A stretch of 39,076 bases of DNA from positions 1 to 39,076 of IMG/VR virus record IMGVR_UViG_3300010389_000045; one strand, 5' to 3'. The stretch's first letter is position 1, and each line of letters starts with the position of its first letter. The notes under the pieces were generated by a model that had not been told where the DNA came from, made no database searches, and saw only the letters and a list, made by a program, of their open reading frames with translations. Positions 233 to 37,191 of the stretch are shown piece after piece. The position numbers and the translations under genes are program-made. This DNA comes from a virus.

Positions 233-264
233 TTGGACGACTGTGTAATGTCGTGTGCTAGACT
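233..264 (+). promoter_or_regulatory. Putative promoter for the late operon
   Basis: TTGGAC (233-238) and TAGACT (259-264) are separated by 20 bases, which is long for a sigma-70-type promoter. The case is helped by the minus-strand counterpart at 34339-34369, which has TTGACG, 19 bases and the same TAGACT, also just upstream of the same leader hairpin. Confidence 0.4.
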
Positions 265-295
265 CTCCAATGCTGAACGTGCTGTAGTAGCCCCA

Positions 296-332
296 GCATT
301 CGCCGCCCCCTGGAGGGGCGGCTCATTGAATG
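296..332 (+). ncRNA. Leader hairpin element, copy 1
   Basis: GCATTCGC leads into GCCGCCCC (302-309), a loop, GGGGCGGC (315-322), then GCTCATTGAATG. The same outer sequences flank a differently spelled stem at 34291-34325 on the minus strand. This copy lies in the presumed 5' leader of the terminase operon. No T-tract follows the stem, so it looks like a leader RNA element rather than a terminator. Confidence 0.55.
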
Positions 333-6659: not shown

Positions 6660-7652
6660 ATGGCTTTCGGTTACAAGGACACCGATGCTAACTGGTCAGA
6701 CATTCTGACCACGACCTTTGCCAAGGTCACCCCCCAGTTCATTGATCAGGTCTTCCAGGCCCGTCCGCTGGCTTACTTCCTCGCTCGTGCGGGGCAGGTC
6801 ATCCAGATTGACGGCGGTGCTCGCATTCAGGAAGCGCTGATCGCTCAGGACAACTCGACCAACACGATCACTTACTCGGGTGTCGGTACTATCGGCAACA
6901 CCCCGCAGGAAGAGGTCACCTCGGCTATCTACGACTGGAAGCAGCTTGCTTCGACCGTGTCGATTTCGGGTATTGAAGAGGCTCAGAACAGCGGCGAAGC
7001 TGCGTTCCTCGACCTTCTCAACACCAAGATCGAGGTCGCTCGTGAGTCTGTTGTTCAGAAGATGAACGAGATGTTCTACGCTGCTGGTGGCGTTTCGGGC
7101 AGCAACCCGAACGACTTCCACGGCATTGGCCTCCTGATTAAGGACACCAGCACCGTGGTTGGCGGTATTGACCCCGCTAACAACACTTGGTGGCAGAGCC
7201 AGGTCCACGACGCAACCAGTGCGGCTGCGTTCGATCACACGGACGCTACTGAGCTGGACCGCACCATGATGACCAACGTGTTTAACGACGCGTCGGTCGG
7301 TGGCGACACCCCGCAGTTCGTCATCACCACCCAGGCGCTCCACGAGAAGTACGAAAGCCTGCTTCAGGGCAACGTCCGTTACATGGACACCGCTCTTGCT
7401 GACGCTGGCTTCCAGTCTCTGGAGTTCAAGGGCCGCCCCGTTCTCTTCGACGAGGACTGCCCCGCTGGCGAGATGTACTTCATCAACCCGAAGTACCTGC
7501 GTCTCAAGGTTCACCGTGACCGCTTCTTCAAGGCTGGCCCGTTCATCCAGCCTGTCGACAAGGACACTCGGACCATGAAGATGCTCACCTACGGCAACCT
7601 GACGATCAACAGCCGTCGTCACCAGGGCTGCATCACTGGCCTTACCGTCTGA
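6660..7652 (+). CDS. Major capsid protein
   Basis: A 330-residue protein after the scaffold gene. The pattern is that of HK97-fold capsid proteins: an early FIDQVFQARPLAYFLARAG, a hairpin-like segment at about 55-95, a long spine helix at about 105-140 (EEAQNSGEAAFLDLLNTKIEVARES) and a C-terminal beta-rich part with LEFKGRPVLFDEDCP. AGGAG precedes ATG 6660. Codon use is richer in C-ending codons than in its neighbours, as expected for a highly expressed gene. A terminator-like hairpin follows, which also fits high expression. Confidence 0.88.
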   Translation: MAFGYKDTDANWSDILTTTFAKVTPQFIDQVFQARPLAYFLARAGQVIQIDGGARIQEALIAQDNSTNTITYSGVGTIGNTPQEEVTSAIYDWKQLASTVSISGIEEAQNSGEAAFLDLLNTKIEVARESVVQKMNEMFYAAGGVSGSNPNDFHGIGLLIKDTSTVVGGIDPANNTWWQSQVHDATSAAAFDHTDATELDRTMMTNVFNDASVGGDTPQFVITTQALHEKYESLLQGNVRYMDTALADAGFQSLEFKGRPVLFDEDCPAGEMYFINPKYLRLKVHRDRFFKAGPFIQPVDKDTRTMKMLTYGNLTINSRRHQGCITGLTV

Positions 7653-16408: not shown

Positions 16409-19400
16409 ATGAGCGACACCGAACCTTCGGGGCAAAATCTGGAACAGCTGTTCGGACCTGACGGCATTGATAAGATCCTTCAGCAAGAGGGAACGCTCGA
16501 TCCTTTTGAGGTTCGTGCTCCTACAGGCGGCGCTGCGGGCACGGTTGTTCCGCAGCCGTCTGGAGGCGCTGCGGAACAGATCGAACAGTATTACGGCGGC
16601 CTTGGTGGCCTTGGCGGTGCGACTCTAACTTCTGAGCAGCAAGAGCAGCTATTTGCTGTGCTGTCTCGTGACAACGCTGTCGACGCTGCTTACGAAGCCA
16701 TGCCTGCGTGGGCCAAGGGCCTGCAGGCGCTGTCTCCCGTCATTGAAGTTCTTGATGCTGGTCGCGCTCTTGTCACGTCGGCGTACAAAGAGTACGGCGA
16801 CATTTTCATGGACGGCGAGCAGGCGTCTTGGTCTGAGTTCAAAGAACAGTTTGATCGCAACATTGGCGGTGGCGAACTAGTCCAGGCTTGGTTCCCTGGG
16901 TTGGGTGAGGTTGAAGTCCTTGGCTACAAGCCTTTGGACAACATCGCTGGTTTCGTTTTTGAAGTTGGCCTTGACCCGTTGTCGTACCTGACTCTTGGTG
17001 CCGCTAACGGCGCCCGCATGGGTTTGGCAGGCGGCGTAAAACTGGCGATGCAAACTGGCGACGTTGCTTTGGCTCGCCAGATTTACACCAAAGGCTTGAA
17101 GTCTTTGACCCCTGATCAGCTGAGAAGGCTGAATAACAACGGCATCGCTCAGGGGTTCATCAAGCAGGGCGAAGAGATCAACACTGGTTTGCAGATGATC
17201 GTGCCTGGCACTGGTGCTGTTGCTCAGAAGTTGACGTTGGGCAGGGTGCGGCAGCGCACGATTACTCTTGCTAGCCGCAACAACGTGTTCCGCAAGGCGA
17301 TTCCTAGCATTCGGCCTGTCACTATGCGGATCGGCAACATTCTGACGCCGCTTCGTGGCGGCGACCGTCGCATTATTCGTCGGCTTCTACGTGACGAAGA
17401 TTTCTTGATCAACCAGGCGTCGTTGGCTACTGACGCAAAGCATGTCTTTACGAAGCTGGACGAAGCTGGCAAAGCAATGCCAATGAGTCCTGACGAGTTG
17501 TGGGGAGCAGCTTGGACTTCGTTGAACGGCAGCAATCTGTCTCGTGGTGTAGAAACCGCAGTTGAAAACTCGTTGTTGAAAAGTTGGGATCAGCTTCGAA
17601 GCAAGCTGATCAAGGCTGGTATTACTGGCCAGCAAGCGTATGACGCTTTGGGCCGCAGCCAGCCTGTTGACGGCATGGATCAGCAGTTGTTTGACGAACT
17701 CAAGCAGTTTGCTGATTTTGTTGCCGACACAGCCAATGAGTCTGCTGGTATCGAGTACATCCTGAAGCGTGCTGACTGGCAGCCTGCAGTTGTTACTGCT
17801 GAGTACTCACAGTACTTGACTTACTCACGCACTCGTGGCGTCAAGTTCGACAAGGCCAGTTTCGAACGGAAGGCCAACATTGTTGCTGGCGAGAACTTCA
17901 TGGGCGAGCGGCTTGTTACCGCTGAACAAGACGCTGTTATTCGGGGAGCCGAAGTCGGTCGCACGCCACGGCAGCAGGCTATTGACATTCTTGAAGAACA
18001 TGCTGCCGCATACGGCGGGCGTGATGTACTCAAGTGGTTTAGCGACGACTTGTTTGAAGCGATGCCTACTCATTTGCGTCGGGTTGCCCGTCGCACTGGC
18101 AACGTTTGGCTTGAGCAGTACCTGATCAGGAACGGCGTTGCCATTGACCGCACTAAGACTGTTGTCGATCGTGCAGGCGAAGCTGCTTACTTGATTGCAA
18201 AGCGCGAGTTGCACAAGGCTGACGAACTTGTTGCGAACCAGACGGCTAAGAACGCTAAAGCTCAGCAGTTGGCTGCCGACGCTACTGCCGCTGAGAAGCA
18301 GGCAGCGGTTGACTTTGAGCAGTCTCAGCGTGACCTGGCAAACGCTGTCGGGCTGGACCCTGTCGACATTCCGCAAGTCTCGATTCTTTTCCAGATCGGT
18401 GAAGAGCTAGACGAGTTGGCCGACGAGGCTGCGTCTGCTCTTGCTAGGTATCTCGATACGTCTTCTGATGTGAACAGGCTGAAAGCGCTAGACGAGGCGT
18501 TGGAAGCTGCGTTGGCTCGTGAAAAGACGTTGGGTTTGGAAGTCCGACAAGTCGAAGAGGCCAGCAGGGCAGTCAAGCAGAAGATTGCTGACCTGTACGA
18601 ACGGGGCAGTCTGAAGGCTGAAGAGTTCGACAAGGGTGTAGACGACACTCTTGAAGCGTTGGAAGAGATTCGCCGTATTGAGCAGGATCTGACTGATCTG
18701 CACGTGATCAAGGGTCAGCTAGACGCTGACATTTTGGCTCGTGCAGGTGACCAGCGAGATTTGCGTCTGGCTTTGGCTCGTTCGAATGCGTTTATCGACG
18801 AGACGGAGAAGCGGGTTCGTGTCTTTGAGTACATTCTTGAACAAATCAGGTTCCGTGATTCGCACTTCAAGCATCTGAGTGGCCAGTCAAACTTCATTCC
18901 GAAGTTTCGTCTACAGGGGGCTGCTTCGTGGCAGACACCTGGCAAGCGGCCCAGCATTGCTGATGCTTATGACAACAAGGGTCTGATTAGTCCGACTACG
19001 GGCAACGTTGAGACGACGTTGGACGACCTGAAGAACCCGTATTTTGTTGGGGCGACTGATGACGCCCCGCAGTACAACTTGAGCCTTGATTGGAACACGT
19101 ACAACGAAGACATCGAACCGTTCTTGCGGGCGATGGGGTTCGATGTTGATGCTGCTGATCCGAAGATTTTTCATCCTGACGGGGTCAGCATCAAGTACGA
19201 GGTGGTCAAGGCTGAGTCTGACAAGCTGAAGGGGATGTTGGCTGCTGAGCATCGCACGAGGCGTTCTTACATCAAGCTGATTGACGCAGGCAATCCTGAC
19301 GTTGAAGAGGGCGTTCAGTGGCTGCGCACGCAGGCACAGTTGTCTCGTCGGCTTGACCGTCTTGTGTCAGGTCTTGGCGCTGACATGATTGCTGATGAGG

Positions 19401-22400
19401 CAGAGGCTGTTCGTGCAGCAATCGAAGGGCTAATTGTTGCGAATAACGGCTACTTGGCTGTTGCTGGCCAGAACGTGTTTTATCACGGCGTGAACGCCGT
19501 GAACCCTCGGTTGGATCTGACGAAGACGTTTATTGATCCGTCGTTGCGGTCAACTGCAGAGTTGGACACGTTTGCTGGTGTTCACTTGGCTACGAACAGG
19601 TCGTTGGCTGAGCGGTTTGGTCGCATGCTGGATGGCGAGAACCCGCTTGTGGTGCAGGCCATGGCGGATTACACGAACAGGCGTGTGAAGTCTGGCTGGC
19701 AGGTTCAGGACTTTGAGTCGTTGCGGTACGACGACGAGTTCATTCGGTTCTTGTTGAACCGTGTGCCTCGGGGCGCTGACATTTGGGATCTGTCTTACCC
19801 TGACGCAGGCAAGCTTGCTGCGGTCAAGGTGCGTGCCAGCAACCCGAAGGTGTATGGCGCTTCGCTGGACAACTTTGTGAACGGCGAACTGCGTCGTGAC
19901 ATTCTTGGCAGCGTTGACGAGGTCGGGCCTGGTGGCCGTGCCCGTGGTTTGGGTCTGGCTGAGATGCAGACCGACATGGTGGACGCTGGGTTCCAGCAGG
20001 GCGTGTTCACGTTGGAGTACATGCAGCGGGCGGGTGTGCCGCACGCTGAACAGATCGACATGCTGGTGCGTGGCGTGGACGAGACGGGCGGTGTAGTCGC
20101 CCCTGAAATGACGTTCTCTGACGCTGTGCTGCAAGTGGTTTTGCGTGAGGCGGATGGCGATCATTGGGACTCGTTCATGCAAGCGTTGGATGGCGTTCCT
20201 GACTTGGCCAGGTTCTCTGACAACTGGGATCTGGAATCGCCTGACGGCATTGCGGAGATGTTGTCTTACGCTCGGGCGTTGGATGTCGAGCTTGACGGTG
20301 AGGTTTGGGATGCGTTGATGGCGATGCAGCCTGAACGTGGGCAGCGCACGTTGCTGAGTGTGGCTCAGCAACGTCTTGATCTTCTTGATGATGCGGCTAC
20401 ACGGGCGCTGGATGACGGGCTGGACCCGTTGTCTCGGGCAGCGATGACGAAAGAGCAGGCGTTGGCTGGCAATGTCGGCGGGTTCTTCGACGATTACGTG
20501 TATCGCCTGTCCAGCAATCACCTGTATCAGGGCGGCGAGATTGGCAGCGACGAAGCTGGCCGTGTGATGGAGTTGGTGCAGCAGGCGTACATTCGTCAGC
20601 TGCGTCGTGAGGGCTATGACTCTGTTGCGTATGGCATGCGTGAAGAGGTCGGCAACTGGGCGGTGTCGCCGTTGCATCCTGCGCAGATTGAGCCTGTCAC
20701 GATGGCCGACTCGTTCGGCGCGTCTGGCATGTCTGAGTCAGAGATGGCTTGGAGGATGTGGGACGAGTCGCAGCAGGCCCAGTCGGAACTGTTGTTCGAT
20801 GGGCAACGCACGTTGGAAGATTTGTCGCCTGAAGAATTGGCCGAAAGGGAACTGGTTGAATATCTGCCTGATGGTGGCGTGACGTTTAACGGGCCTACGA
20901 CCGATTTCCAAGAAGGCTGGATGCGTTCTTTGCAGGAAGCGGCTGACAGCGCAGACAATCTTGCTTTGAGGCAAAACTATGAGCAGGCCCTGAGCGACTC
21001 GATCAACAGAGCGTTTGGTGGTTCTGATCGTGCTGATGATTTGTTGCAGCAAGACGCTGGTCGTTTGTCGTTTGCTGCTGCTGGAGAGAACCAGCTTGCT
21101 TGGAACGGTGTTCTTGATGAGCTTGCACCAGTGTTGCGTGAGACTTTGGAAACGGCTGACAACACGGCTAGGGAAGCGTTTGAGTTGGCTGGCGAGGCAC
21201 GTTCCGATTTGCTTTCTCGCCCCATGGGTCGGCAGACGCTGGGCGAAGCAGTCCAGCAGCCTGAGAATCTGCTCAACCCGAAGGTGTATCGAACGAACGA
21301 CGCGCCTGCGTTGCGTTCGGGCATCTGGTTCCGTGAGCACGTCGACAAGGTGCGGCAGACGATCGAACGGATGGAAGAGGCTCTAGATCAGTTCAGGTTG
21401 GCTCGTGGCGGACTGGCTGTTTCGGGCACTGACGAGGCTGGCCGTTTGGCTGCAGGTCTGGACGAGATGGAGCAGTACCTGTTGCAGCAGCTTGATGAGC
21501 TGTCTGGTTACGGTTTGCAGATTGATCGTCTTGCTCGGACGATGGAAGCGTCGTCGATTACCAGCATGTACGCCCGTTCGTCTGGCGAAGACTTGATTGC
21601 TTGGACTGACACGCTGGTGCGTGGCATTAGGGACCGCAAGACTCGTGCAGCTTGGAAGATGTACGACGAGGCGGCAGAGCTGTCTGACACTCTGCCGCAC
21701 ATGGACGCCTCGGTTGAGTCGGCGTCTCGTAATGCTGCAGCTAACCGAACCAAGATCCGTGCGTTGCGTGGCGAGATGCGTGACATGCAGGGCAGGATTG
21801 AGTGGCGTACAGAACAGGCCCAGATGGAAGAGATGGGTTTCCGTCAGCAGGCAGAAAACATTCGTGATGCTGCTGCGGAGCTGATTGTTCGCAACATTGA
21901 CAAGAATCGTGAAGACATTGCCCGTCTGGGCGCTGCTGCTGTAGAAGCCAACAACGCACGCAATAACTCGATCGTGGATTCGTTGCGTCTACAGGCTGAC
22001 GCTGCTCAGGCTGAGGCTGACTTGATTGCGGCGAAGGTTGATCGTGATGCGGTGGCAGCCAAGTTCTTTGCGATGAAAGCCCCTGAGCAAACTCAGGCTT
22101 TGCAGGAAGTCTTGGCGATGGGTTGGGTGCCGTATGGCACGAACTCTGCTTTGCCGAAGGACATTGCTGACGGGCTGATGCAGGTCAACGAGATCATGGG
22201 TCGTGGCTCTGACAACATCTTTGTTGCGGGCTTGGATTATGTCGTTGAGTTGATGAAGTCGTGGGGTATTGCTTCGCCTGGTTTCTTGATGCGTAACGGT
22301 TTGGGTGGCATTTTCAACAACGCTCTTGCGGGCGTTGACGTTGCGTCGTATCGCAGGTTCCAGAAGATGTACGCTCCTTTGTGGGGCCTTGGTTTCAAGA

Positions 22401-23590
22401 AGGGAGCTGTTCGTGAGGCTTTGAACGCGACGATGATGAGTCCTAGCCAGCAGGCGGATGCGTTTAGAAACTCGCAGCAAGCTCAGCGTGTCATCGCTCG
22501 TCAGGGCGATGAGGGTCAACGGATTGTTGATTCGTTGGCTCAAATGATCGAGATGGGTGTGTTGAACGGCGGCACGGTGCAGGAGCTTGGCACGTACCGC
22601 ATCCGTGATCAGGCCCTGCGTCACACGTTGAACCCGTTGAGCCGCAAGAACGCTGCTGTGTTGTTTGTCCGTCAGGGCAACGCTCACATGGAGAACTTGT
22701 TGCGTGGTTCGTTGGCGTTGGATGTGTTGTCCAAGGGCGGGTCGATGGAAGAAGCTGTCGAAGCCGTGTTCAAGTACCACTTCGACTATGACGATCTGTC
22801 TGGTGTTGAGAAGGGCATCATCCGACGGATGATTCCGTTCTACACGTGGTCACGCAAGAACCTGCCGTTGCAGCTTGAGTCGATGATTGCCAAGCCCAAG
22901 GTTTACAACCGCATGTTCCGTTTCAAGGCTGAGATGGAACGTGAGCAGGAAACTGAGATTGCTTTGCCGAAGTGGATGGACGACAGGTTCAACATTCGCA
23001 TGCCGTTCTCGTGGGGTGGGAACCCTGTTGTTTGGTCGCCTGATTTGCCGTTTAACGAGATCAACAGGATGTCGTTCTTGGTTGATGCGGTGGCGAACAG
23101 GGATCCTGTTGGCGCCGTGTTCCAGCATCCGAACAGCCCAACTGTGCAGTTCTTGGAGATGGCTAACCCGTTGATCAAGACGAGTGCGGAAGGCGCTTTC
23201 GGGCAGTCTGTGTTCTTTGGGTCTAGCTACGATCGGACGTTGGAACCGATGCCTGAGGCTTGGTCCGAAACGTTGGGTCAGGTGCCGTTTGTGTTGCCTG
23301 CGATGCACGCAGCAGGTTTGATCGAACGAGGCAAGTCAGGCACGTACTACACATCGCAGCAGCGAAACGCTCAGATCGAATCGTTCCTGCCTGTGTTGGG
23401 CAACCTGCGCAGGCTGTATCCGTTTGATGACTACGACGAGAAGACGAACCAGCGTTACGTCCAGAACTGGGTGAACTGGACGTTCGGTTTCGGTTTCAGA
23501 ACGATCACGCCTGAGCAGCAGTATTACAGGCAGCGAGAGCTGTTGTTAGACGAGCGAGAGCGGCTGCGTGAGTGGCGCTTTGTGGAATAG
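16409..23590 (+). CDS. Giant polyvalent virion protein with ADP-ribosyltransferase-like region
   Basis: A 2393-residue protein, the largest in the window, last of the virion genes and probably ejected with the DNA. A glycine-rich N-terminus leads to long coiled coils (about 600-820). Residues about 1022-1427 resemble an ART-PolyVal ADP-ribosyltransferase: VFYHG (1023-1027), AGVHLATNRSLAERFG (from 1056), an AAVKVRASNPKVY strand, and GYDSVAYGMREE (from 1402) then a WAVSPLHPAQI ending; the last two parts are separated by a large insertion. More coiled coils lie at about 1500-1920. The C-terminus carries PGFLMRNGLGG (from 1957) and MIPFYTWSRKNLP (2141-2153), motifs of large actinophage virion proteins. 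No lysozyme motif is evident. ADP-ribosylation of a host target is inference. Confidence 0.8.
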   Translation: MSDTEPSGQNLEQLFGPDGIDKILQQEGTLDPFEVRAPTGGAAGTVVPQPSGGAAEQIEQYYGGLGGLGGATLTSEQQEQLFAVLSRDNAVDAAYEAMPAWAKGLQALSPVIEVLDAGRALVTSAYKEYGDIFMDGEQASWSEFKEQFDRNIGGGELVQAWFPGLGEVEVLGYKPLDNIAGFVFEVGLDPLSYLTLGAANGARMGLAGGVKLAMQTGDVALARQIYTKGLKSLTPDQLRRLNNNGIAQGFIKQGEEINTGLQMIVPGTGAVAQKLTLGRVRQRTITLASRNNVFRKAIPSIRPVTMRIGNILTPLRGGDRRIIRRLLRDEDFLINQASLATDAKHVFTKLDEAGKAMPMSPDELWGAAWTSLNGSNLSRGVETAVENSLLKSWDQLRSKLIKAGITGQQAYDALGRSQPVDGMDQQLFDELKQFADFVADTANESAGIEYILKRADWQPAVVTAEYSQYLTYSRTRGVKFDKASFERKANIVAGENFMGERLVTAEQDAVIRGAEVGRTPRQQAIDILEEHAAAYGGRDVLKWFSDDLFEAMPTHLRRVARRTGNVWLEQYLIRNGVAIDRTKTVVDRAGEAAYLIAKRELHKADELVANQTAKNAKAQQLAADATAAEKQAAVDFEQSQRDLANAVGLDPVDIPQVSILFQIGEELDELADEAASALARYLDTSSDVNRLKALDEALEAALAREKTLGLEVRQVEEASRAVKQKIADLYERGSLKAEEFDKGVDDTLEALEEIRRIEQDLTDLHVIKGQLDADILARAGDQRDLRLALARSNAFIDETEKRVRVFEYILEQIRFRDSHFKHLSGQSNFIPKFRLQGAASWQTPGKRPSIADAYDNKGLISPTTGNVETTLDDLKNPYFVGATDDAPQYNLSLDWNTYNEDIEPFLRAMGFDVDAADPKIFHPDGVSIKYEVVKAESDKLKGMLAAEHRTRRSYIKLIDAGNPDVEEGVQWLRTQAQLSRRLDRLVSGLGADMIADEAEAVRAAIEGLIVANNGYLAVAGQNVFYHGVNAVNPRLDLTKTFIDPSLRSTAELDTFAGVHLATNRSLAERFGRMLDGENPLVVQAMADYTNRRVKSGWQVQDFESLRYDDEFIRFLLNRVPRGADIWDLSYPDAGKLAAVKVRASNPKVYGASLDNFVNGELRRDILGSVDEVGPGGRARGLGLAEMQTDMVDAGFQQGVFTLEYMQRAGVPHAEQIDMLVRGVDETGGVVAPEMTFSDAVLQVVLREADGDHWDSFMQALDGVPDLARFSDNWDLESPDGIAEMLSYARALDVELDGEVWDALMAMQPERGQRTLLSVAQQRLDLLDDAATRALDDGLDPLSRAAMTKEQALAGNVGGFFDDYVYRLSSNHLYQGGEIGSDEAGRVMELVQQAYIRQLRREGYDSVAYGMREEVGNWAVSPLHPAQIEPVTMADSFGASGMSESEMAWRMWDESQQAQSELLFDGQRTLEDLSPEELAERELVEYLPDGGVTFNGPTTDFQEGWMRSLQEAADSADNLALRQNYEQALSDSINRAFGGSDRADDLLQQDAGRLSFAAAGENQLAWNGVLDELAPVLRETLETADNTAREAFELAGEARSDLLSRPMGRQTLGEAVQQPENLLNPKVYRTNDAPALRSGIWFREHVDKVRQTIERMEEALDQFRLARGGLAVSGTDEAGRLAAGLDEMEQYLLQQLDELSGYGLQIDRLARTMEASSITSMYARSSGEDLIAWTDTLVRGIRDRKTRAAWKMYDEAAELSDTLPHMDASVESASRNAAANRTKIRALRGEMRDMQGRIEWRTEQAQMEEMGFRQQAENIRDAAAELIVRNIDKNREDIARLGAAAVEANNARNNSIVDSLRLQADAAQAEADLIAAKVDRDAVAAKFFAMKAPEQTQALQEVLAMGWVPYGTNSALPKDIADGLMQVNEIMGRGSDNIFVAGLDYVVELMKSWGIASPGFLMRNGLGGIFNNALAGVDVASYRRFQKMYAPLWGLGFKKGAVREALNATMMSPSQQADAFRNSQQAQRVIARQGDEGQRIVDSLAQMIEMGVLNGGTVQELGTYRIRDQALRHTLNPLSRKNAAVLFVRQGNAHMENLLRGSLALDVLSKGGSMEEAVEAVFKYHFDYDDLSGVEKGIIRRMIPFYTWSRKNLPLQLESMIAKPKVYNRMFRFKAEMEREQETEIALPKWMDDRFNIRMPFSWGGNPVVWSPDLPFNEINRMSFLVDAVANRDPVGAVFQHPNSPTVQFLEMANPLIKTSAEGAFGQSVFFGSSYDRTLEPMPEAWSETLGQVPFVLPAMHAAGLIERGKSGTYYTSQQRNAQIESFLPVLGNLRRLYPFDDYDEKTNQRYVQNWVNWTFGFGFRTITPEQQYYRQRELLLDERERLREWRFVE

Positions 23591-24199: not shown

Positions 24200-24492
24200 G
24201 TCGTCTCAGTCTCGATGTACTCAAACAGGTCTTGCATGTTGTCGTCGTCGAAGATGAGCCAGTCGCCTTCGATTGTTTGAACCAGCCAGTCGGTTGGTTC
24301 AATGTCGAACACTCCGCCGTAGATGAACAGGGTTGCTGTGTTATTGCGGACTTCGTCTTGTTCGTAGTCGGGCGGCATTTCGTCATCAAGAACCCAGTCT
24401 TGTAGGCGTTGTGCGCCGTACACGGTGCCGTCGTATTGGACAGCTGCGGCGGTGCAGCCGAGTCCTTCGAAATATCCCATGGCTGAGGTCAT
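24196..24492 (-). CDS. Unknown acidic protein
   Basis: A 98-residue protein with strong acidic bias and many aromatic residues, ending DLFEYIETETT. Its composition and likely beta structure (GTVYGAQRLQDWVLDD, DWLIFDDDN) recall small DNA-mimic or inhibitor proteins, but nothing specific supports that. AAGGAGACGG precedes the ATG, which overlaps the stop of the sigma-4-like gene as ATGA. Confidence 0.65.
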   Translation of the reverse strand: MTSAMGYFEGLGCTAAAVQYDGTVYGAQRLQDWVLDDEMPPDYEQDEVRNNTATLFIYGGVFDIEPTDWLVQTIEGDWLIFDDDNMQDLFEYIETETT

Positions 24493-25031
24493 TCCGTCTC
24501 CTTGACTGTGTGTCGTTCTAAGTATTCGGCCACTTCGGGCACATCTTCTAGCACGGTTCGGAGCTTGTCCAAACCTCGTGCGACGGTCAGGTAACAGGTG
24601 CTGCGGGGCAGCTTCATTCGTCGGGCTACGGTGTCGTAGGTGTCTTGGCCGAGAACGATCGAAACAAGCGCTTCGGCTTCTCTTGCAGTCAATGTCTCCT
24701 CTATGGCGTCTAGGAGCGCCTCTCGTAGCTCGTGGAGCTTTTCGGCAGTGTACCCACCCAGAGGGTGGTGAGGAGCCTGCATGAGCCTCTCAGTGGCTGT
24801 AAGGACACGTTCGTCGTATCCAAGCACATCAATCAGGTCTGAAGAGATCTCCCGAGGGCCACGCCAGCGGCGGATGCCGTCGGCGTCCTGCTTCGAATCC
24901 CGCATAAACGGGCGTTTAGGTTCTGCTGGTAGTCCTTCGGCCAAGAGTATCCGCTCCCATTTCTCCTGCAGCGCAGCACGGTCCTCAACGGAAGGTTGGG
25001 TGCGTCTACGCCTCGGTTGTGATTGACCCAT
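24489..25031 (-). CDS. Sigma region 4-like helix-turn-helix protein
   Basis: A 180-residue protein with a basic N-terminus (QPRRRRTQ). Residues about 113-158 (LTAREAEALVSIVLGQDTYDTVARRMKLP then STCYLTVARGLDKLR) have the layout of sigma-70 region 4 or a LuxR/terminase-type HTH: helix, turn with a small residue, recognition helix. No region 2 is present, so it is not a full sigma factor. It could redirect host RNA polymerase or regulate phage promoters. The start overlaps the upstream nuclease gene by 26 bases. Confidence 0.7.
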   Translation of the reverse strand: MGQSQPRRRRTQPSVEDRAALQEKWERILLAEGLPAEPKRPFMRDSKQDADGIRRWRGPREISSDLIDVLGYDERVLTATERLMQAPHHPLGGYTAEKLHELREALLDAIEETLTAREAEALVSIVLGQDTYDTVARRMKLPRSTCYLTVARGLDKLRTVLEDVPEVAEYLERHTVKETE

Positions 25032-27510: not shown

Positions 27511-28434
27511 CTACGAGACAGCCCCAGATGCTTTGGCAAGCATCCTGTCGAGCTGTGGTCGTCCTTTGTCTGCACGATGATCCCACTTAGGTGCATGCTG
27601 GTCATGGGCTTCGTACAGAAACTCCTGCGCCTCTGACAGGGACAGGTCGCACTTGGTCAGTTCACGGCTGAATGCCCACAGCCATTCGGAGCGGTCGTCC
27701 TGTCGTCCGCACCCGTGGGTGTACATGTGCCAGGCCAGACCAGACATGCGTCGCCGTGCCGACTTGGCACGGCTCACGCTGCCGCTGCCGAAACTCTTGG
27801 CAGTGACCAGCTGTGGTGCTTTGTACAGGGCTGCCAGTGGCTCCAGCGTGGGGGCGTCTACAGCTGAGGCGTGTGCGGCTGTGACGAACTCGTCGAGCGT
27901 GTGGTCGACGACCATGCGTCGGCGTTCGTCTGCGCCTGGGTTGTTGCCTGGGTACGGCAGTCTGACGTAGTTGCCGACTGCGCCGTCTGCCAGGGTCGAC
28001 TGCTTGGGGTTGATCTCACGGGTGGGTGCTTGTGCGATCTGTGCAGCAGCGAGCAGGGCGTGACGCATGAGTTGTGCGGGCACCCAGTCTTGGGCGAAGA
28101 CCCAGACGTGGTAGCCCTTGGAGCGTGAGCGTTCGATCCAGCCTGTGACACCGAACTTGCGGAGGACGGTGACGATGTTGCTGGCGTGGATCAGCGACGC
28201 TTCTTCGCCTTCGTCTACGTCGATGCAGCCCCAGTGGACGACGAACCCGTCAGGTGTCTGCACCATCGGGTACACGCCTGCCTGTGGCCCTCCGTTCAGG
28301 TGCTGCTGCATCTGCGTGACCCACCAGGCCATGTGGTCGGCGGTGGTCTTGTGGGGGCTGCGCTCGCAGCCGCCTTCTTCTGTGCCGATGACGGCAGGGT
28401 TCCCTTGGAACAGGGTGATGAATGTGTCAGTCAT
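27511..28434 (-). CDS. Archaeo-eukaryotic-type primase (TOTE-like AEP)
   Basis: A 307-residue primase or primase-polymerase. CIDVD places metal ligands at D72 and D74; SRSKGYHVWVF (103-113) supplies the basic residue and H109; EINPKQS (140-146) and GNYVRLPYPG (154-163) match the later AEP motifs seen in TOTE-type primases. The C-terminal part (about 215-307) is helical with a cysteine in HGCGRQ, perhaps a PriCT-like region. ATG 28434 is chosen because AGGGGGGA precedes it. It lies seven bases after the helicase gene, so the two probably work together. No separate DNA polymerase is seen in the window. Confidence 0.88.
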   Translation of the reverse strand: MTDTFITLFQGNPAVIGTEEGGCERSPHKTTADHMAWWVTQMQQHLNGGPQAGVYPMVQTPDGFVVHWGCIDVDEGEEASLIHASNIVTVLRKFGVTGWIERSRSKGYHVWVFAQDWVPAQLMRHALLAAAQIAQAPTREINPKQSTLADGAVGNYVRLPYPGNNPGADERRRMVVDHTLDEFVTAAHASAVDAPTLEPLAALYKAPQLVTAKSFGSGSVSRAKSARRRMSGLAWHMYTHGCGRQDDRSEWLWAFSRELTKCDLSLSEAQEFLYEAHDQHAPKWDHRADKGRPQLDRMLAKASGAVS

Positions 28435-28441
28435 GTCCCCC

Positions 28442-29533
28442 CTAGAACATGGGTCGGTCGGGCACCTCGGCGGGCTGGCTGGCTGCGACCTCGTCCTTGA
28501 GGGCTTGCAGGGCTGCAGCGTTGTGCTCGGCACGTGATGCCGTGGGGCCTGCGCCGTCGTCAATGCGGACGAAACGGTCGCCTTCCTGCATGGGCCTGAT
28601 GGCGCCTGTCTCAGAGGCGATGTGCAGGTCGACGTAGCCTGTCTTCGACGGTGGCCGCTTGTTCTTGACGACACCGACGGTGATGCTGTTCTGCTCAGCC
28701 TCACGCTCGTAGGCGTCCAGCGTCTCGTCCTGACACTTGCGGAACACTTCGACCACGTAGGTCGCTTCGTTCTCGCCGCCGTACCGCATGCCGTCCATGC
28801 CCTTGGCCTGACCACGTTCGCCACGCTTGCCCTGATGCAGGCAGATGACGGGGCGCTTGGTGCCCTTGGCAAACCGCTTGAGTTCCTGCACCTTCCACGT
28901 GACGCCGTCGTGGTCGGCGTCGCCAGGGATCAACTCCAGATAGTCGATGAAGATCCCCTGTGTAGGCGCCTCCCAGTACGCCTCGCATTCCATGACAGCC
29001 TTGCGCATGTCGTTGAAGTCGAGGCCGTCGTCGATGACAACGAGGTTGGGGAAGTCGTCGGCAGCGACGGTGCGCAGCAGCTCGATCATGTCGCTGTCGC
29101 CTGCCTTGATGGCCTGCTCGACATGCTCGGGGTTCAGCCCTCGCATGATGGCTGCGAGCTTCATCAGCACTAGCTCTGCCATCTCGTCAGGGGTGAACAG
29201 GATGAAGCGACCATGTGCGTTGTTGCAGATGGCCTGCATGACCAGCTGCGTTTTGCCGCTGTGTGCTCGTCCCGTGACGAAGCACAGGTCGCCGTTGCCA
29301 ACGCCTCGCATCATCAGGTCCAAGTCTCGGATGCCCCACATCAACCGTCCTTCGGTGTTCTGTAAAGCATCGACCAGCGGGTCTACCGCTGAGTTCAGGT
29401 GACGAACGAACCTCCACTCGGGAGCAGACGCAGAATCTTCCTCTGCGCCTGCTCCCGTGCCATGGGAGGTGGTCTGGGCCGCTTCTATTGCGGCGTCGAT
29501 TGAGTCGTCATCCAACAGTCGTGGCAAAGCCAT
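28442..29533 (-). CDS. DnaB-like replicative helicase (RecA-fold ATPase)
   Basis: A 363-residue ATPase. Walker A is GRAHSGKT (88-95), Walker B IFIDYLE (194-200), and VICLHQGKRG (about 229-238) matches the sensor segment of DnaB/KaiC-like helicases. The DnaB N-terminal domain is missing or reduced to a charged linker of about 60 residues. It should unwind the fork for replication. GGGAGGC precedes ATG 29533. A helicase-primase pair is encoded with the next gene; a RadA-like recombination role is less likely. Confidence 0.85.
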   Translation of the reverse strand: MALPRLLDDDSIDAAIEAAQTTSHGTGAGAEEDSASAPEWRFVRHLNSAVDPLVDALQNTEGRLMWGIRDLDLMMRGVGNGDLCFVTGRAHSGKTQLVMQAICNNAHGRFILFTPDEMAELVLMKLAAIMRGLNPEHVEQAIKAGDSDMIELLRTVAADDFPNLVVIDDGLDFNDMRKAVMECEAYWEAPTQGIFIDYLELIPGDADHDGVTWKVQELKRFAKGTKRPVICLHQGKRGERGQAKGMDGMRYGGENEATYVVEVFRKCQDETLDAYEREAEQNSITVGVVKNKRPPSKTGYVDLHIASETGAIRPMQEGDRFVRIDDGAGPTASRAEHNAAALQALKDEVAASQPAEVPDRPMF

Positions 29534-33764: not shown

Positions 33765-33971
33765 TCAGCTGCTCAGGTTCTCCGCACGCTTGAGCATGTA
33801 GCGGATCTGGCCCTGCACGCTGCGCTCCTCACGCTTGGCACGAGCCTTGATGCGGTTGTACATGTCGATGTCCAGCGACAGCAGCACCTTGTGCGTGTCA
33901 CTGTCACGCTCTGCCTGGACGCCAACGATGGCGTCCACGGCTGCGTTCAGGCGTTGTGCCTGTGTGGGCAT
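33765..33971 (-). CDS. Ribbon-helix-helix DNA-binding protein
   Basis: A 68-residue protein. Residues about 28-65 (VLLSLDIDMYNRIKARAKRE then SVQGQIRYMLKRA) fit the Arc/MetJ fold: one beta strand for the major groove, then two helices; it would act as a dimer. It lies one base after the acidic small gene and downstream of two promoter-like sites, so it could repress those or other repeated promoters here. Confidence 0.75.
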   Translation of the reverse strand: MPTQAQRLNAAVDAIVGVQAERDSDTHKVLLSLDIDMYNRIKARAKREERSVQGQIRYMLKRAENLSS

Positions 33972-34236: not shown

Positions 34237-34290
34237 CCCCCACCGTAGGTGAATGTTTGTTTTGGGCTGCTACAGCCAGCCCCTGGTTTG

Positions 34291-34325
34291 CATTCAATGA
34301 GCGGCCCCGCAAGGGCCGCGAATGC
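34291..34325 (-). ncRNA. Leader hairpin element, copy 2
   Basis: Minus-strand reading: GCATTCGC, stem GCGGCCC/GGGCCGC (34319-34313 with 34307-34301), then GCTCATTGAATG. The flanks match the element at 296-332 while the stem sequence differs but still pairs, which points to a conserved RNA structure. It sits between promoter-like site C and the acidic protein gene. Confidence 0.55.
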
Positions 34326-34338
34326 CTGTGCATTATCC

Positions 34339-34369
34339 AGTCTAATCGTCGGGTCTACCTCCTCGTCAA
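34339..34369 (-). promoter_or_regulatory. Promoter-like site C upstream of the leader hairpin
   Basis: Minus strand: TTGACG (34369-34364), 19 bases, TAGACT (34344-34339). It mirrors the left-end pair at 233-264, with the same TAGACT and the same hairpin following. Confidence 0.45.
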
Positions 34370-34388
34370 AGCCGACCTGTAGCAGCCG

Positions 34389-37146: not shown

Positions 37147-37191
37147 AGGCAACGCACCGCCTGCTGCCAGGCGATGCGCTGCGAGTTGCCT
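37147..37191 (-). other. Long stem-loop (about 16 bp)
   Basis: AGGCAAC (37147-37153) pairs with GTTGCCT (37185-37191), GCA with TGC (37175-37177), and CGCCTG (37158-37163) with CAGGCG (37168-37173) around a four-base loop, with a small unpaired bulge. It lies between two genes in the 94-base gap and could be a terminator or leader structure. Confidence 0.55.

Follow-up and report, generated by a model that had tools for sequence, protein, structure and literature searches.

A duplicated, covarying hairpin in the putative leaders of the middle and late operons of a phage clade

The window analysed here, the whole 39,076-nucleotide stretch of IMGVR_UViG_3300010389_000045 (positions 1–39,076, to which all coordinates below refer), raises the question of what a hairpin does that occurs once on each strand of a phage genome, with the same flanking bases and an unlike stem. 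The phages concerned are ~39 kb long and encode TerL, portal, endolysin, major capsid and tail fibre proteins on the plus strand, and primase, DnaB-like helicase, PD-(D/E)XK nuclease and RusA on the minus strand. The hairpin heads two operons of about 10 and 23 kb, each with an untranslated leader. Relatives of the DUF932 gene lie mostly in actinobacteriophages, and a GP88 gene is also present; by these genes the phages, a small uncultured family, probably have an actinobacterial host. A host search via TerL in genome contigs returned nothing.

Several features of the window are recorded in their own right. The primase (27511–28872, −) has an AEP domain of the TOTE conflict-system family PF22548 (E 1e-15) and overlaps the DnaB-like helicase frame; a plus-strand frame of 2393 aa (16409–23590) is without a Pfam match. 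The minus-strand protein at 24489–25031, which weakly matches sigma-70 region 4/phage sigma factors (Pfam E 0.0016; PHROG 1740, E 5e-6), is a possible middle or late sigma factor. A Nextera/Tn5 adapter at the contig start (8–49) is an assembly artefact present in many phage records.

Two copies of one hairpin in the window

Both copies follow the plan GCATTCG, GC stem, CTCATT(G/A)A and lie at 296–332 (+) and 34291–34325 (−), where the preliminary description had placed them (296–332 and, on the opposite strand, within 34291–34369). The late copy on the plus strand (GCATTCGCCGCCCCCTGGAGGGGCGGCTCATTGAATG; 69.6 bits with the covariance model) comprises GCATTC (296–301), a stem of 302–309 with 315–322 around the loop 310–314, TCATT (323–327) and GAATG (328–332). 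The middle copy on the minus strand (34325–34291, GCATTCGCGGCCCTTGCGGGGCCGCTCATTGAATG; 54.4 bits) comprises GCATTC (34325–34320), a stem of 34319–34312 with 34308–34301, TCATT (34300–34296) and GAATG (34295–34291). In each, GCATTCG and a GC-rich 8-bp stem are followed by CTCATTGAATG, and the exact sequence GCTCATTGAATG is found in the window at these two sites and nowhere else. The stems are unlike, yet eight base pairs form in each, the closing pair of the minus copy being U.G.

An unsupervised search for any two separated hairpins with stems of at least 7 bp and common 6-nt flanks on both sides returns from the window the element pair, with its complement, and one other pair; shuffled genomes give no pair at all (0/40). 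The same search also returns the CATTCG/CTCATT pair in each of three full-length relatives (G003, G011 and G015). The duplicated hairpin in the window is real and exceeds chance expectation. The other pair, at 37166 and 37560 (−) with flanks CTCGCA/TGCCTG, has its members ~390 nt apart.

Folded alone, both hairpins adopt the same shape, with an outer CATTC/GAATG pairing, the inner stem and UCAUU bulged on the 3′ side, and are more stable than shuffled sequences (z of −3.1 and −3.6). In longer stretches z is only −0.7 and −1.8 and other folds compete; free energy alone is therefore not taken as an argument.

Relatives, covariation and invariant flanks

Relatives were taken from viral contigs by TerL identity (84–97%) and scanned with the pattern ATTCG-N(8-34)-CTCATT, the reversed pattern serving as control. 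Each of the three full-length relatives has one copy per strand, at 7609 (−) and 13092 (+) in G003, 634 (+) and 34300 (−) in G011, and 1003 (+) and 35074 (−) in G015; fragments have single copies, and the reversed pattern has no match in the same relatives. A covariance-model search, which the preliminary description had proposed, finds two full matches of 54–70 bits in each of the window, G003, G011 and G015, and the remaining matches there are partial or below 23 bits, several of them arising from the opposite strand of that stem. An absence of copies from related phages, named beforehand as grounds for giving up the idea, is thus contradicted by two full copies in each of three full-length relatives.

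Beyond this group, one more contig with a complete stem (L131) emerges when the viral collection is scanned with a relaxed pattern; in the other new matches the stem has at most 4 pairs. As far as they were scanned, TerL relatives at 40–60% identity and MW202803 do not contain the pattern. An AT-rich contig (L002/L006) matches the strict motif with a short stem and was set aside, about two such matches being expected by chance on our estimate. Host copies were likewise rejected: the 29 relaxed-motif matches in genome contigs are scattered over unrelated phyla and few have full stems, and for those that do (Azospirillum, a Gracilibacteria MAG and a Burkholderiales MAG), where the hairpin occurs once per genome, kinship is not claimed. 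A blast search of the element against 50,697 phage records gives chance matches only; the window is without an Rfam match at the gathering score, and lenient scans of the two leaders give sub-threshold matches only. Judged by sequence comparison, the element is a new structured RNA family, seen in the collection scans only in this phage clade.

The inner stem varies as expected of a pairing maintained by selection. Its eight pairs are always standard pairs in 12/12 distinct copies, and three of the eight change on both sides (C-G/G-C, C-G/U-A and C-G/U-A). Over these 12 distinct copies the covariation score is 0.259, compared with at most 0.059 when the partners are slid and a shuffled mean of 0.109. 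This backs the earlier suggestion that a stem which changes while still pairing marks a selected structure, and it supports selection on the stem as a pairing, in RNA or in single-stranded DNA, either of which covariation alone would fit. Pairing in the outer CATTC/GAATG helix amounts to only 83%, without compensatory change, and the helix fails in G011/G015; relatives show TTAAATG, TTAAAGC and TTAAGAA here. We regard the structure as well supported, and its function as something we infer.

The flanks CATTCG and CTCATT show no variation across copies, even where the outer helix is lost, so the flank residues look as if they are read by sequence and the stem by shape. The flank conservation described earlier accordingly stands for CATTCG...CTCATT, but neither the 12-mer GCTCATTGAATG nor the CATTC/GAATG pairing is universal in the relatives. 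The two copies of one genome agree in the base that follows CTCATT, G in the window and G003 and A in G011 and G015. Taken with the same flanks and unlike stems, this points to a common reader, and one factor probably reads both copies; the shared base might instead reflect common descent.

Putative leaders of the middle and late operons

The minus copy is preceded by a promoter-like sequence at 34369–34339 (−), consisting of TTGACG (34369–34364), 19 nt and TAGACT (34344–34339). By hand reading, every middle copy has TTGACG/TTGTAC, 18–19 nt and TAGACT/TACAAT/TATAAT/TAGAAT, ending 11–23 nt before CATTCG. This conserved −35/−10 pair just upstream supports a position of the middle copies in a 5′ leader. 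In L083 and L085 (G011/G015), an extended inverted repeat GGCTGGAGGGCTGCGTT...AACGCAGTTCTCCAGCC, operator-like, is centred on the −10 of the middle promoter. The plus copy has a similar pair at 233–264 (+), with TTGGAC (233–238), 20 nt, and TAGACT (259–264) preceded by TGC (extended −10). The TTGxxx...TAGACT pairs noticed earlier before both copies are therefore present in the window, with long spacers of 20 and 19 nt. The TGCTAGACT of the late promoter is kept in G003, G007, G008, G009 and G010, and in late copies of the window group the TGC-TAGACT −10 sits 32–35 nt 5′ of the element; sequence reading gives no clear late-promoter counterpart in G011/G015. The window late promoter also contains GACGAC...GTCGTG.

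A possible leader peptide, weakly indicated, adjoins the late hairpin on its 5′ side (270–287, +; ATG CTG AAC GTG CTG TAG, with a second TAG after it). An ATG frame that ends in CTG TAG TAG is common to all late copies, and G011 and G015 differ in it by an in-frame 3 nt. The window frame (270–290) could encode a leaderless peptide M-L-N-V-L, the counterparts in relatives being MALFFYDAGL, MALFFYGSGL and MALLSMAGL.

A motif dispersed over the genome, the asymmetric 11-mer GGC[GT]NCTACA[GC], has copies beside both hairpins. One of them, CTGTAGTAGCC, a copy of GGCKNCTACAG at 282–292 (+), keeps its position in every late copy, and another, GGCTGCTACAG at 34377–34387 (−), is upstream of the middle promoter. 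The window has 16 exact sites against 0.4 expected (11–18 in relatives) and, for GGCTNCTACAS with one mismatch, 29 against 3.8 expected; further sites include 9245, 9585, 21939 and 34265–34275. The motif may be stoperator-like or serve as some other genome-wide site.

Folds place a second stem-loop 3′ of the first in most copies, and the late and middle versions are unlike in sequence. The middle one (34264–34282, −; GGGCTG-GCTGTAG-CAGCCC, containing CTGTAGCAGCC) has a counterpart in all middle copies, weak in G003, in the form GGCTG-loop-CAGCC, its loop containing UGUAG; the pair adjoining the loop, G-C in the window, is swapped to C-G in G001 (GGCTG/CAGCC versus GGCTC/GAGCC). The late one (351–372, +; TAGATGCCC-GTCA-GGGCGTCTA) is kept in the window group, and the late leaders of G011/G015 have a tRNA or tRNA-like stretch in its place. 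Between the late hairpin and terS, L019 (496–570) and L020 (1041–1115), of the G014/G015 group, carry a tRNA-Pro (GGG); at that place L016 and L017 have a tRNA-like stretch not called by ARAGORN. Immediately 5′ of the terS start codon is a small hairpin, GTCCAC-GGG-GTGGAC (394–408, +), kept in relatives with a changed loop, which may mask the terS ribosome site.

The first gene of the late operon is terS (409–882, +; ATG 409), a terminase small subunit by PHROG 2538 (E 1e-4). Early in the other operon is an RHH-type gene (33765–33971, −) whose Pfam RHH matches are below the curated cut-off. The minus copy does precede an RHH operon in the window, as first described, but the first gene is not RHH in all relatives. 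Nor is the label "early" apt for this operon, which should be called middle/replication. The minus copy heads it with ~4.7 kb of other minus-strand genes upstream.

Candidate roles and known systems

The reading we prefer, to which we give a probability of about 40%, is that both sites are one duplicated cis-acting RNA element near the 5′ ends of the middle (replication) and late (terminase/structural) mRNAs, marking both long operons for put/nut-like control of processive elongation. Its core would be a GC stem-loop with exchangeable but maintained pairs, framed by CAUUCG and CUCAUU(G/A)A and usually followed on its 3′ side by the second stem-loop. On leaving RNA polymerase the folded leader would most likely bind to the polymerase itself or to a factor of phage or host origin, and the elongation complex would then resist pausing or (Rho-dependent) termination across the long operons, as with HK022 put or lambda nut. 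What is observed is the sequence itself, its covarying pairs, the arrangement of two copies, one per strand, their orientation with gene direction and the promoter sequences upstream; transcription of the element, factor binding and the effect on elongation are what we infer. Neither operon shows an excess of intrinsic terminator-like sites on its sense strand, so a target of antitermination is not visible among them. No relative of N, Q or NusG was recognised among the phage proteins scanned, and homology searches often miss proteins of the N type.

We suggest only tentatively that the element might represent a new class of phage-encoded processive antitermination or elongation RNA, of an actinobacterial phage lineage and with no sequence relationship to put or nut; one trans reader, RNA polymerase itself or a phage protein, would then recognise the invariant bulged hairpin in both the middle and the late leader and thereby couple both operons. 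To our knowledge, few phage leader RNAs outside enterobacterial phages have covariation support, and the mechanism by which RNA polymerase passes through actinobacteriophage operons of 10–25 kb is largely open. Present exactly twice per genome, the compact element combines invariant residues with compensatory variants that occur in nature and offers a ready variant set for reporter, SHAPE and pull-down experiments.

The position of the hairpin near the 5′ end of both leaders and its strong GC stem would also suit, with a rather low probability, an mRNA 5′-end element, that is, a stability hairpin or RNase processing site by which the mRNAs of both operons would acquire defined and protected 5′ ends. 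The tRNA, which needs 5′ processing, or tRNA-like stretch ~5–50 nt downstream in the G011/G015 group fits such a site. A set of 12 invariant bases, unpaired or weakly paired, would however be superfluous in a generic protective stem, RNase III-type sites are recognised mostly by shape, and a bare stem would be expected more than twice per genome.

About equally improbable, in our view, is a regulated switch, in which transcription or translation of both operons would be controlled through the hairpin by a metabolite, by a translated leader peptide or by a phage regulator such as the RHH protein encoded in the middle operon. The frame ending CTG TAG TAG before every late hairpin, with its in-frame length change between G011 and G015, speaks for a switch, as does an upstream AATGC/GCATT alternative pairing that competes with CATTC/GAATG in several copies; but the middle copies are without a leader frame, and in some copies the alternative partner lies partly 5′ of the likely transcription start. 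The hairpin is followed by no U-tract and is hence not a classical attenuator, and in the window at least ~80 nt separate the hairpins from the first start codon.

Since RNA and single-stranded DNA are not distinguishable by covariation alone, the hairpin might conceivably act in single-stranded DNA, as a site for primase/helicase loading or strand initiation on the lagging-strand template of both fork arms. We think this improbable, although the copies lie on opposite strands flanking a 5-kb segment, a placement that would fit a bidirectional fork, and the phage encodes its own AEP primase and DnaB-like helicase: promoter sequences stand at a near-fixed distance upstream of the middle copies, and the GC skew is equally explained by gene direction.

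Still more remote is the reading in which the element reproduces the antitermination signal of host rRNA leaders, with a boxB-like stem and a true boxA bound by NusB-S10. The stem-then-boxA order is that of rrn leaders, and GCUCAUUGAA resembles actinobacterial rrn boxA (GCUCCUUGAA or GUUCUUUGAA). Against a matrix of 29 usable sites from the leaders of 30 actinobacterial genomes (consensus GTTCCTTGAA), GCTCATTGAA falls within the top 0.05% of phage 10-mers, which is suggestive only once the offsets examined are taken into account. The downstream AACTNAACAG, however, is absent, and the G011/G015 copies score much lower. The strict NusB-S10 reading is weak, CUCAUU having an invariant A where rrn boxA has C or T; the A form occurs in 3/396 actinobacterial genomes and the C/T form in 45/100. 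Since boxA of such hosts hardly ever has this A, we class the element neither as boxA nor as nut. An intrinsic terminator or attenuator is rejected on the missing U-tract, CUCAUURA directly following the stem in all copies, and a protein-coding origin on stem and loop lengths that differ by 1–2 nt among copies and so leave no common reading frame.

The element can be compared with known systems. Cluster K mycobacteriophages carry a conserved repeat, SAS, with inverted repeats at gene starts (SAS/ESAS; PMC3203893). The element is likewise a conserved repeat with inverted repeats, in probable actinobacteriophages. SAS, however, is a 13-bp repeat in 11–19 copies at translation starts, whereas the element has changing stems and two copies in promoter-near leaders, away from start codons, on which ground identity with SAS/ESAS was rejected.

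As in lambda nut (boxA-boxB) and rrn boxB-boxA, a short stem-loop adjoins a conserved linear sequence in operon leaders, and with the linear sequence after the stem the order is that of rrn. CUCAUURA is one base from the boxA-like CUCYUURA, that base being position 4, always A in the element and C or U in boxA. The hairpin loop of lambda boxB is conserved, unlike that of the element, and no N protein was recognised among the proteins scanned.

The put RNA binds the β′ zinc-binding domain and suppresses pausing and termination without other factors. HK022 has two put RNAs of ~70 nt, each with two stem-loops with bulges and one per early operon; putL is directly downstream of its promoter, and the two put operons are transcribed in opposite directions (PMC9378689). 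Where both put operons are early, those of the element are middle and late, its second stem-loops differ between copies and its flanks CAUUCG/CUCAUU are invariant, and put-type activity is here a proposal. The likeness, compared by description, is one of arrangement: two copies, one for each long operon, oriented with the genes and near a promoter, with a pair of stem-loops in most copies. As with put in HK022, one copy stands in each of two opposite operon leaders, in the window and in all three full-length relatives.
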